Shown in pieces: positions 60,918-64,000 of a stretch of DNA of 64,000 bases (position 1 is its first letter; the number at the start of each line of letters is the position of its first letter). The stretch spans positions 1 to 64,000 of the forward strand of contig JAFSVF010000013.1 of NCBI GenBank assembly GCA_017450205.1, read 5' to 3'. The position numbers were made by a program, and so were the translations under genes. The notes beneath the pieces are model-generated. The model worked only from the letters and a program-made list of their open reading frames with translations, was not told the DNA's origin and searched no databases. This DNA is from Bacilli bacterium (lineage in GTDB: Bacteria > Bacillota_I > Bacilli_A > RF39 > UBA660).

Positions 60918-61265
60918 ATGAATAAGAACGAAAAAGAAGTCGGCATCTTACTTCATAGGTTAGGCGTATCCAGCAAGTATCATGGTTTTGATTATTTGAA
61001 TAAATGCGTATGTTTATTACTTGAAAATGAAGTATATAGACACAAAACTATGAATTTCTTATATGAAAGAATTGCAGAAGAGTTTAATTGTACATCTAAA
61101 TGCATTGAAAGAAATATAAGAACTTGTATTGATAGAAGCTGGAATAAAGTTTCTTATGATACTGTTGATCATGTATTCGGTAGTACAATGAACTATGAAG
61201 ATGATTGTCCTACGAATCGTGATTTCATTATGAATTTGTTAGATTTCTTTAAATTTAATAAATAA
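60918..61265 (+). CDS. Stand-alone Spo0A-type C-terminal DNA-binding domain
   Basis: 115 residues. The whole protein matches the effector domain of sporulation regulator Spo0A (PF08769): LLHRLGVSSKYHGFDYLNKC, IAEEFNCTSKCIERNIRTCI (recognition helix region; Spo0A has NTTPSRVERAIRHAI), and ending WNKVSYDTVDHVFGS with PTNRDFI. The receiver domain that Spo0A needs for phosphorylation control is absent, and the protein starts right before this domain with a good AAAAGGAG site. It is therefore a DNA-binding protein outside the phosphorelay, regulated at expression level (inference). No other sporulation gene is in the window. Confidence 0.85.
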   Translation: MNKNEKEVGILLHRLGVSSKYHGFDYLNKCVCLLLENEVYRHKTMNFLYERIAEEFNCTSKCIERNIRTCIDRSWNKVSYDTVDHVFGSTMNYEDDCPTNRDFIMNLLDFFKFNK

Positions 61266-61286
61266 GTGTGAGAATAGCGTGAGTAT

Positions 61287-61320
61287 AAGGGAGAACTTAA
61301 AAAGTTCTCCCTTATTGTTT
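61287..61320 (+). terminator. Terminator upstream of cysS
   Basis: AAGGGAGAACTT, short A loop, AAGTTCTCCCTT, then ATTGTTTTG. Confidence 0.85.
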
Positions 61321-61322
61321 TG

Positions 61323-61351
61323 TTGAAAAAAATAAGTAATTTTTATATAAT
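61323..61351 (+). promoter_or_regulatory. Consensus-like promoter of the cysS transcript
   Basis: TTGAAA (61323-61328), 17-base spacer, TATAAT (61346-61351). Transcription should begin near 61358, just ahead of the short leader frame. Confidence 0.75.
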
Positions 61352-61371
61352 ACGTTAAAGAAGTGATAATT

Positions 61372-61407
61372 ATGATGAAAAATAAACGATGTTGCCTTTT
61401 GTCTTAA
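61372..61407 (+). CDS. Putative leader peptide MMKNKRCCLLS upstream of cysS
   Basis: An 11-codon frame with GAAGTGATAATT before its ATG, lying between the cysS promoter and cysS. It contains two adjacent Cys codons (TGT TGC). CysS is the enzyme that charges tRNA-Cys, so a ribosome stalling on Cys codons when charged tRNA-Cys is scarce could change translation of cysS. No attenuator hairpin lies between the frame and cysS (36 bases apart) and no T-box is present, so control would be translational. The coincidence of place and codons is the evidence; function is inference. Confidence 0.55.
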   Translation: MMKNKRCCLLS

Positions 61408-61443
61408 ATTAAATATATACAATAATTGGAAAGAGGTAATTTT

Positions 61444-62835
61444 ATGAAAATATATAATACTTTAACAAGAAGTGTTGAAGATTTTAAAACTAATGAGGAA
61501 GGTAAAGTTAAGTTTTATACATGTGGACCTACTGTATATCATTATGCTCATATAGGTAATATTAGAAATTATATTGGTCATGATATTTTAGATAAAACTT
61601 TAAGATATATTGGATATGATGTAACTAGAGCTATGAATATCACAGATGTAGGACATTTAACTAGTGATAGTGATTCTGGTGAAGATAAGATGGCTGTTGC
61701 TGCAAAAAGAGAACATAAAAAAGCTATGGAGATTGCATCATTTTATACTGATGCATTCTTTAAAGATTTTGAAGCAGTTAATTGTAAGAAACCTGAAATA
61801 ATTAGTCCTGCTACTGACAATATTGAAATGTATATTAAGATGATTGAAAAGTTACTTGATGAAGGATATGCTTATCAATCAGGAGGTAATGTATATTTTG
61901 ATATTTCAAAACTAGATGACTATTATGTTTTAACTAATCATAAAGTAGATGATATGGTAGTTGGTGCTAGAGAAGGTGTTGAAGAAGATAGTGCAAAAAG
62001 AAATCAAGCAGACTTTGCATTATGGTTTACTACTTCTAAATTTGAAAATCATGAATTAACTTGGGATTCTCCTTGGGGAGTTGGATATCCTGGATGGCAT
62101 ATTGAGTGTTCTGGAATCTCAATTAAATATTTAGGAGAACATTTAGATATTCATGGAGGTGGAGTTGATAATATATTCCCACACCATACAAATGAGATTG
62201 CACAAAGTGAAGCATATCTTGGACATAAATGGTGTAATTATTGGTTCCATAATGAACATCTTCTAACTGATGAAGGTAAAATGAGTAAGTCTAAAGGAGA
62301 TATATTAACTGTTTCTAAACTTATTGAACAAGGTTATGATCCACTTGCTTATAGATTGATGGTATTAAGTAGTCATTATAGAAAACAATTATTATTTACA
62401 TATGATTCTTTAAACCAAAATGAAACATTACTTAAGAAGTTAAGAAATAAAGTTTCAAGTATTAAAGAAGATGGAGAATTAGTTCAAAATGAATTTGATA
62501 AATATAATAATAGATTCAAAGAAGAACTTGAAAATGATTTAAATACAGCTAATGCATTAACTGTTTTATTTGAATTATTAAAAGATGATAATGTTAATGG
62601 AAAAACTAAATTAGAATTAATTAAGAGTTTTGATAAAGTATTTAGTTTGGATTTAATTCAAAAAGAAGAATTTTCTGAAAATGATGAAGAAATTATTAAA
62701 TTAATTGAGAAGAGAAAAGAAGCTAAAAAGAATAAAGATTTTGAACTTGCTGATTCTATAAGAGCAGATCTTTTAAGTAAAGGAATTGAATTAATTGATA
62801 CTAGAGAAGGTACAACTTATAGAATTATTAAATAG
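61444..62835 (+). CDS. cysS: Cysteinyl-tRNA synthetase
   Basis: 463 residues from the ATG after AAAGAGGTAATTTT. HIGH-type motif in YTCGPTVYHYAHIGNIR, zinc ligands including the Cys of that motif and GWHIECSGIS, and KMSKS in EGKMSKSKGD. The C-terminal anticodon-binding region ends with KNKDFELADSIRADLLSKGI, standard for the family. Loads Cys onto tRNA-Cys. A short Cys-Cys leader frame and its own promoter lie upstream; a YugP-like gene follows ten bases after. Confidence 0.97.
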   Translation: MKIYNTLTRSVEDFKTNEEGKVKFYTCGPTVYHYAHIGNIRNYIGHDILDKTLRYIGYDVTRAMNITDVGHLTSDSDSGEDKMAVAAKREHKKAMEIASFYTDAFFKDFEAVNCKKPEIISPATDNIEMYIKMIEKLLDEGYAYQSGGNVYFDISKLDDYYVLTNHKVDDMVVGAREGVEEDSAKRNQADFALWFTTSKFENHELTWDSPWGVGYPGWHIECSGISIKYLGEHLDIHGGGVDNIFPHHTNEIAQSEAYLGHKWCNYWFHNEHLLTDEGKMSKSKGDILTVSKLIEQGYDPLAYRLMVLSSHYRKQLLFTYDSLNQNETLLKKLRNKVSSIKEDGELVQNEFDKYNNRFKEELENDLNTANALTVLFELLKDDNVNGKTKLELIKSFDKVFSLDLIQKEEFSENDEEIIKLIEKRKEAKKNKDFELADSIRADLLSKGIELIDTREGTTYRIIK

Positions 62836-62845
62836 AGGTGTATAA

Positions 62846-63496
62846 ATGATTATTTTAATTATATATTGTGTTTTATTTATTGTCTCTTTAGTTATTAACA
62901 TTTATATTTCCTTATTTGAGAGAAAATATAAAACTAAAAATAATAAAAAGAAATTAACTGGATGTGAGCTTTCACATGAAATATTAGATTTAGATAAAAA
63001 AGCTAATTCTTATATTTTACTTACTAAAGGAGATAGCTTATATAATAGTTTAAGAGATACAATTAAATTAGATGAAGATTGTTTCGATGAATCATCTATT
63101 TATTCATTAACTGTTTCTGCTTTAAAAACGTATGAAGCAATTGATAATAAAAATAAAGAACAATATAAATTAAGAGATAAATTATTAAAGATAGTATTTT
63201 ATATGGTAATCCTTTCATATATACTTTTAGCTGCATGTGTAGTTTTAAATGATTATTCATTTGGATATGTTAGTTTAGCTTTACTTATTGTAGTTTTATT
63301 ATTTGATATTAGATGGTATTTATTATATAAATCAAATATTGAAAAAATAGTTAAACTATTAAAGTCTAATGGCTTTATTGATAAAGATGAAGTAGATAGT
63401 GTTAATAGTTTAATGAGAGTAGAAGTATTAAAATCTTTTACTAGACTTATAAATGTTATTAAGAATTTATTCGATCAAATAATTCCAGATGCCTAA
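62846..63496 (+). CDS. YugP-like (Zn_peptidase_2) homologue without the zinc motif
   Basis: 216 residues. N-terminal helix (2-22), then KKLTGCELSHEILD, aligned with the LTGAEVARRILD of YugP-type zinc peptidases (PF04298), and YNSLRDTIKLDEDCFDESSI aligned with their YDPRSKVVRLSEGVY..TSI. Where the family has the catalytic AAHEVGHAIQ, this has VSALKTYEAIDN: both His and the Glu positions are lost. Two more helices (~118-160). It is probably a non-catalytic membrane protein. Starts ten bases after cysS with TAGAGGTGTATAA. Confidence 0.6.
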   Translation: MIILIIYCVLFIVSLVINIYISLFERKYKTKNNKKKLTGCELSHEILDLDKKANSYILLTKGDSLYNSLRDTIKLDEDCFDESSIYSLTVSALKTYEAIDNKNKEQYKLRDKLLKIVFYMVILSYILLAACVVLNDYSFGYVSLALLIVVLLFDIRWYLLYKSNIEKIVKLLKSNGFIDKDEVDSVNSLMRVEVLKSFTRLINVIKNLFDQIIPDA

Positions 63497-63598: not shown

Positions 63599-63728
63599 GT
63601 TTAAACGGCGATGATGTGCGAGGTTGCTGACACACCAGGAGGAGTTGCAAACCTGGTATAATATGTCAGGTTAATTCGTTACGGAGCTATGTTTATACAA
63701 AGATATAAACGAAGGGAGACAAATTAAT
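63599..63728 (+). promoter_or_regulatory. S10-operon (rpsJ) leader RNA
   Basis: The 130-base leader is more G+C-rich than its surroundings and contains TGCGAGGTTGCTGACACACC (63617-63636), which I recognise from the leader before rpsJ in Bacillus and relatives. Visible hairpins: CCAGG/CCTGG (63635-63656) and GTTTATA/TATAAAC (63691-63697, 63704-63710). Likely the autoregulatory or processing leader of the operon; the binding protein is not known to me for this lineage. Confidence 0.7.
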
Positions 63729-64000
63729 ATGTCAAAAATTAGAATAAGATTAAAAGCTTATGATCACAAAGTTCTAGACAATGCTTGTGCAAAAGTTATT
63801 GACACTGTAAAGAGAACTGGTGGAGAAATTTCTGGTCCAGTACCACTTCCAACAGAAATTCAAAAAATTACAGTATTAAGAGCTGTACACAAATATAAAG
63901 ATAGTCGTGAACAATTCGAAATGAGAACTCATAAGAGATTAATCGACATCAAAAATCCAAGTGAAAAAACTATGGATGCTCTAAAGAAATTAGATTTACC
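63729..64000 (+). CDS. rpsJ: 30S ribosomal protein S10, 3' end cut by the window
   Basis: The first 90 of about 102 codons. Canonical S10: [34 protein letters not shown] and the 16S/NusB contact region [20 protein letters not shown]. First gene of the large S10-spc ribosomal protein cluster, which should continue beyond the right edge. GAAGGGAGACAAATTAAT precedes the ATG. Confidence 0.98.

Follow-up and report, generated by a model that had tools for sequence, protein, structure and literature searches.

How is the cysteinyl-tRNA synthetase gene cysS controlled in a genome that carries 11 T-boxes, none of them at cysS? The T-box (RF00230), which binds uncharged tRNA directly, is the usual control element of aminoacyl-tRNA synthetase genes in Firmicutes. 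The question is raised by a locus near the end of the window, that is, the whole stretch of 64,000 nucleotides analyzed here. The original prediction held that a short leader peptide with Cys codons in front of cysS could act in place of a T-box, by stalling of the ribosome when charged tRNA-Cys is low. Our comparison of related genomes supports this reading as attenuation, and we infer that the leader responds to the charging of Cys-tRNA.

The leader region of cysS

The features of the region are listed in Table 1. The near-consensus promoter upstream of cysS was confirmed, and a TATAAT is similarly placed in the relatives. From this promoter, the cysS mRNA is expected to start near position 61358. 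This putative 5' end lies about 14 nt upstream of the leader ATG, and the leader has a Shine-Dalgarno (SD)-like sequence. The short frame with tandem Cys codons and its own ribosome site was also present as described; it begins with the ATG at 61372, has a second ATG at 61375, and ends with the TAA at 61405-61407.

Two absences had been claimed for this region, and both were borne out. The Rfam search of the window gave no T-box (RF00230) near cysS; the other members of the genus have 8 to 12 T-boxes each. No terminator was found between the leader (61372) and cysS (61444). The sole nearby terminator, a hairpin with a T run at 61285-61315, lies ahead of the promoter and is that of the preceding gene.

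Table 1. Features of the cysS locus, in positions of the window.
Feature	Positions	Strand	Evidence
Sigma-70-type promoter, TTGAAA-17-TATAAT	61323..61351	+	11 of 12 consensus matches; best site of the region
SD-like sequence of the leader, AAAGAAGTG	61357..61365	+	Sequence
Leader frame MMKNKRCCLLS, 11 codons	61372..61407 (stop included)	+	Conserved upstream of cysS, 22 genomes
Rare Arg codon CGA	61387..61389	+	Invariant in 22/22 CGA-type leaders (by construction; see text)
Putative sensor Cys codons, TGT TGC	61390..61395	+	First Cys in 22/22, second in 16/22
Anti-Shine-Dalgarno arm GTTGCCTTTT, overlapping the Cys codons	61391..61400	+	MFE fold and cognate pairing test
Partner arm AAGAGGTAAT, with the cysS SD AGAGG (61432-61436)	61431..61440	+	MFE fold and pairing test
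cysS, cysteinyl-tRNA synthetase	61444..62835	+	Pfam tRNA-synt_1e (3.1e-94), DALR_2

As for the neighboring genes, the one immediately before the cysS transcription unit (60918-61265, forward strand) encodes a stand-alone Spo0A C-terminal DNA-binding domain of 115 aa (PF08769, 3.4e-28) without a receiver domain, and the strong terminator at 61285-61315 follows it. The gene after cysS (62846-63496, forward strand) matched PF04298 Zn_peptidase_2 (1.2e-14), but the product is short (216 aa) and membrane-like. Further downstream, at 63603-63712 on the forward strand, a match to the S10-Clostridia ribosomal protein leader (RF03136, 35.4 bits, barely over the cut-off) precedes a ribosomal S10-like gene at 63729.

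Conservation of the leader

We found the leader upstream of cysS in 22 genomes, whose leader sequences are related to one another and do not represent 22 independent events. They comprise 10 genus members, that is, all 10 genus genomes in which a cysS match was obtained (that of the window included), and other genera of the family. The conservation that the original prediction would lead one to expect was thus seen within the genus and beyond it. Nearly all of the relatives that have named records are metagenome-assembled genomes.

The leaders of the genus were MMKNKRCCLLS, MTLNKRCCL, MLNIKRCCL, MKKNTKRCC, MRKNVKRCC, MYTKRC, MYTKRCCLSILY, MIIDKRCCTL, MFTKRCCTSYLYIK, and MLTKRCCTLLNY. Those outside the genus were MELFFKRCRRCIGTF, MVKEFRRCCACIK, MKYNYFRCLCHS, MNLYPLRCLSFIRHE, MVKRCCIYIT, MLTKRCCTY.., MINLEKNKRCCSLYQKKK, MLVINNLKRCCFYQIIK, MYIKRCCRF, MQEKQIPNIFRCGCCEKKTNE, and MKKIDPKTNYSTRCQNWNRTIIK. 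We also noted a likely extra leader in G523 (contig C24:735-800), CGATGTCTTCGCCAC.. (RCLRHF), which has a single Cys codon, with GAAGGACAT before the cysS start; it stands outside the counts given here.

In a tree of 80 CysRS proteins, the leader was present in 15 of the 16 members of one well-supported clade and in isolated cases elsewhere. The presence of the leader on this tree needs at least five changes, which means repeated gains, transfers, or an old element that was often lost. A search of the whole class for CGATGYTGY ahead of a cysS-like start gave nothing convincing outside the family, and in the same genome, of which a part was scanned, none of 262 genes possessed another leader with CGA or CGG. 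Within the family, a pattern scan with AAACGATGTTG was rejected as too loose; the non-cysS matches inspected among those listed seemed to be intragenic.

One explanation of this conservation is that CGATG is a nucleotide motif bound by a protein, for example CysRS or a transcription factor, and that the frame is incidental. The motif is indeed constant as DNA, and AAACGATGTT is invariant within the genus. However, an ATG preceded by an SD was open in the frame of CGA in 21 of the 22 leaders, and in either of the other two frames in none of the 22. In addition, the distance from this ATG to CGA varies between the leaders in multiples of three, and the Cys codon varies between TGT and TGC, with CGG-TGT in one leader, as would be expected of codons. 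We therefore regard a protein-binding motif as very improbable and consider that the conserved element is a reading frame.

We then compared the distances to cysS. The CGA codon lies 50-62 nt before the cysS start with an sd of 3.4 nt, whereas the sd was 8.4 nt for the leader ATG and 12.7 nt for the leader stop. Because the spacing of CGA to cysS is tight and that of the ATG and the stop is loose, it seems that the place of a stall is constrained, not the end of the peptide. The +1 frame that begins at the ATG within CGATG was inspected by eye and rejected, since neither its length nor its sequence was conserved.

The CGA-Cys core

The original prediction placed the weight on the tandem Cys codons. 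This view held for the first Cys codon, which does not drift: CGA was followed by TGT in 21 and by TGC in one of the 22 CGA-type leaders. It did not hold for the tandem, which was found in only 16 of the 22 leaders and is not the invariant part; some leaders (G008, L046, and G293) have a single Cys codon. That is, the core is CGA-Cys. The figure of 22/22 for CGA is by construction, because the set was partly gathered by a CGATG search. The unbiased basis for CGA-Cys is the codon table of 132 cysS genes, the genus set, and the screen for other Cys leaders. In the SD-led short frames before the 132 cysS genes, CGA occurred in the relevant interval at 21 loci, and Cys was the next codon in all 21. 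Neither AGA-Cys nor CGT-Cys was found in these frames.

CGA is a rare codon in this genome. It accounted for 1 of the 446 Arg codons in the window, for 25 of 1807 in further genomic stretches, and for about 1% in the genome. AGA made up about 86-92% of the Arg codons in the window and the other stretches. The commonest Arg codon is thus never placed before Cys in these frames, which points to a constraint at the level of the codon, rather than on a peptide or a DNA site.

This finding bears on a second explanation, in which the ribosome is halted by an Arg-Cys peptide within its exit tunnel when cysteine or some other metabolite is sensed. Arg-Cys is constant in the peptides, as such an arrest would need, but the residues before Arg vary in sequence and number, and AGA, with about 90% of the Arg codons, would have served the peptide equally and is never used. 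The N-terminal residues, the length of the peptide, and the position of the stop all drift among the leaders while CGA-Cys stays. Thus, stalling that depends on codons fits better than arrest by the nascent peptide, which we think hardly probable.

Two exceptions occur at the same distance, namely CGG-TGT in G412 and TAC-TGT-TGT in G062. These exceptions mean that CGA is not absolutely required. The Cys-Cys leader of G062 (L196) is MILKNIEFYCCSYNLKKDT; it has TAC for CGA, and the other members of its genus have CGA-Cys. This leader is a natural exception that is useful for considering the role of CGA.

CGA is read by tRNA-Arg(ACG) once converted to inosine. We rejected the idea that CGA is an unreadable codon and kept that of a rare codon, because the genomes with the leader do not all have CGA near zero (46 of 653 Arg codons). 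The absence of tRNA-Arg(ACG) was rejected since the gene is present, and TadA-type deaminases were found, below the family cut-off. A TadA-type editing motif (TACG) was also rejected, since the base before CGA varies. In E. coli, reading through the A:I wobble was described as inefficient (Curran 1995, as cited in PMC10454642). In B. subtilis, a reporter was not lowered by four consecutive CGA codons (PMC10454642), and slow reading of CGA is therefore not a given.

Our favored guess is that, with CGA in the P site, the next Cys codon becomes more sensitive to a shortage of tRNA, and the main alternative to it is a plain pause. One may go further and suppose that CGA-Cys is a purpose-built unit, in which the weak A:I wobble of a near-forbidden Arg codon in the P site sensitizes a single Cys codon to a lack of charged tRNA-Cys, and which has been kept or has arisen repeatedly in one family. 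We put this forward only tentatively, as a rather doubtful possibility. If it is true, one Cys codon could replace the long codon runs of classical leaders.

Pairing of the leader with the cysS Shine-Dalgarno region

The RNA from the Cys codons onward is complementary to the SD region of cysS. In the window, GTTGCCTTTT is complementary to AAGAGGTAAT, and the arm pairs of other leaders have different sequences, such as CCGCUGUAU/AUACAGUGG (L048), UGUUGCCUUU/AGAGGUAACA (G001), and GAUGUCUU/AGGACAUU (L046). The mean energy of the cognate arms was -9.86 kcal/mol, compared to -7.14 kcal/mol (sd 0.42) for permuted partners (z = -6.4), and none of 20,000 permutations was as low as the cognate pairing. 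With 17 representatives, the z value was still -5.3. As controls, z values near 0 were obtained for windows taken upstream of CGA or within the cysS coding region, and 110 cysS loci without the leader showed no pairing effect (z = +2.4). That is, the two arms coevolve in the leader-bearing loci. The whole leader fold by itself was unexceptional (z = -1.2).

Since the Cys-codon region pairs with the SD region of cysS, attenuation here would be translational rather than transcriptional. The original prediction had not named this effector step. The pairing was weak or missing in about six of the 22 leaders (G193, G293, L052, and G197, together with G187 and G008, which pair around the start codon), and the model is thus not equally good everywhere.

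A further explanation is that transcription is attenuated by Rho or by polar effects, so that an untranslated leader permits Rho-dependent termination before cysS. The locus has no intrinsic terminator, and in this it is like the cys leaders of Actinobacteria for which Rho has been proposed (PMC1262725). However, few nucleotides separate the stop of most leaders from cysS (22-45 nt within the genus), and termination by Rho leaves the coevolving SD pairing unexplained. We consider it extremely unlikely.

We next calculated the cost of opening the cysS SD in a folding model, in which the ribosome masks and the RNA energies are simplified and the energies are approximate because the RNA is very AT-rich. 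The mean opening cost was 4.1 (4.14) kcal/mol in the free RNA and 0.7 kcal/mol with a stalled ribosome that has Cys in the A site. For the leader of the window, the modeled cost fell from 6.6 to 0.9 kcal/mol with a ribosome mask that has CGA in the P site. With the ribosome at the start of the leader, the cost was unchanged in the model (4.2 kcal/mol). When the footprint was moved along the leader, the modeled mean cost was at its floor with the P site from CGA to CGA+6. When the linkers were shuffled, the drop averaged 0.5 (sd 0.2, at most 1.2), compared to 3.6 for the real sequences.

In the same model, a ribosome that waits at CGA is enough to open the SD (0.99 vs 4.14 kcal/mol). This value agrees with a constitutive pause, in which CGA slows every ribosome on the leader and the SD is open in proportion to the translation of the leader. 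The Cys codons would then be incidental, and the element would set the level of expression and would not read Cys-tRNA. The constancy of CGA, which is greater than that of any other feature, and the leaders with a single Cys codon named above are also in line with such a pause. However, a plain pause needs no Cys, and Cys stands directly after CGA in 21 of 21 cases; the regulated gene is the Cys synthetase itself; and G062 has Cys-Cys without Arg. We therefore think that a constitutive pause is unlikely.

Proposed mechanism

As judged from the comparison of sequences, cysS is likely to be under a translational attenuator that senses the charging of Cys-tRNA. According to this proposal, the mRNA would start near 61358, and a ribosome would begin the 11-codon leader. 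When Cys-tRNA is plentiful, the ribosome would clear CGA-TGT-TGC, and GTTGCCTTTT would then pair with AAGAGGTAAT, so that the synthesis of CysRS would be low. When charged tRNA-Cys is scarce, the ribosome would wait at the point where CGA occupies the P site and Cys the A site. The footprint of the stalled ribosome would cover the anti-SD arm, the SD of cysS would be open, and more CysRS would be made. At this place, the ribosome is probably slowed or weakened by the rare CGA before Cys, which may thereby sharpen the response. The sign of this predicted control fits feedback, because the charged tRNA sensed by the leader is the product of CysRS.

What we believe to be new here is the sequestration of an SD without a terminator on the gene of an aminoacyl-tRNA synthetase, in a lineage where T-boxes are in use, together with a conserved rare CGA. 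That is, the element joins known ideas, namely Cys leaders and the pairing of sensor codons with an SD, on a synthetase gene, and adds the CGA rule. If our proposal is true, a synthetase gene in T-box-using Bacilli of the gut/rumen type is under a much smaller control at the level of translation, with only about 85 nt from the transcription start to cysS. It also offers a testable rule, that of a rare codon immediately upstream of the sensor codon. If CGA does sharpen the response, this would be a natural example of a codon-pair context adapted to sensing, would bear on how small a number of sensor codons can suffice for an attenuator, and would be useful for compact amino-acid sensors. These considerations suggest that leaders with a rare codon and a sensor codon are worth seeking; searches for codon runs would miss them.

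Comparison with known systems

We found no report of this CGA-Cys cysS element in the open-access collection searched, which omits most subscription papers. The leader differs from the T-box in that it has no RF00230 match, though 11 T-boxes exist elsewhere in the genome, and it differs from the classical transcription attenuator in that no intrinsic terminator lies between the leader and cysS. In the drug-induced attenuators of the ermC type, a stalled leader ribosome frees a sequestered downstream SD, and both a macrolide and a specific nascent peptide are required for the stall. The cysS leader resembles them in that the SD would be freed by a stalled leader ribosome; the trigger here is presumably the lack of charged tRNA-Cys.

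Cys-codon leaders are known from two other groups. The uORFC-8-2 of cysS in Rhodobacterales (alpha-proteobacteria) is a Cys-Cys uORF, usually with UGC codons at positions 14-15, for which ribosome-mediated attenuation that reads Cys-tRNA has been predicted; it has two stems and a terminal U-run, that is, an intrinsic terminator, and acts by transcription read-through (PMC8632094). The leader studied here is similar in being a uORF with tandem Cys codons directly before cysS (KRCC in the window; 16 of 22 leaders). In contrast, it belongs to Bacilli and has no terminator, a sequestered SD, and the CGA-Cys core.

Polycysteine leaders have been predicted for the cys operons of Actinobacteria (PMC1262725), and in mycobacterial cys operons, leaderless polycysteine uORFs are described as giving cysteine-dependent attenuation of downstream translation (Canestrari et al. 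2020, as cited in PMC9031893). These uORFs also are short Cys-codon frames without a terminator. They are leaderless, have runs of Cys codons, and belong to sulfur-assimilation genes of high-GC Actinobacteria, whereas the leader here is predicted to be SD-led, belongs to a synthetase gene, and has the CGA-Cys core.

The pairing itself has a counterpart in the LEU element of leuA in Actinobacteria, in which a run of Leu codons has been proposed to pair with the downstream SD and which has a conserved pseudoknot (PMC1262725). In both elements, the downstream SD is the direct pairing partner of the sensor codons. They differ in that the LEU element combines leuA, a pseudoknot, and a run of Leu codons, whereas the gene controlled here is that of a synthetase.
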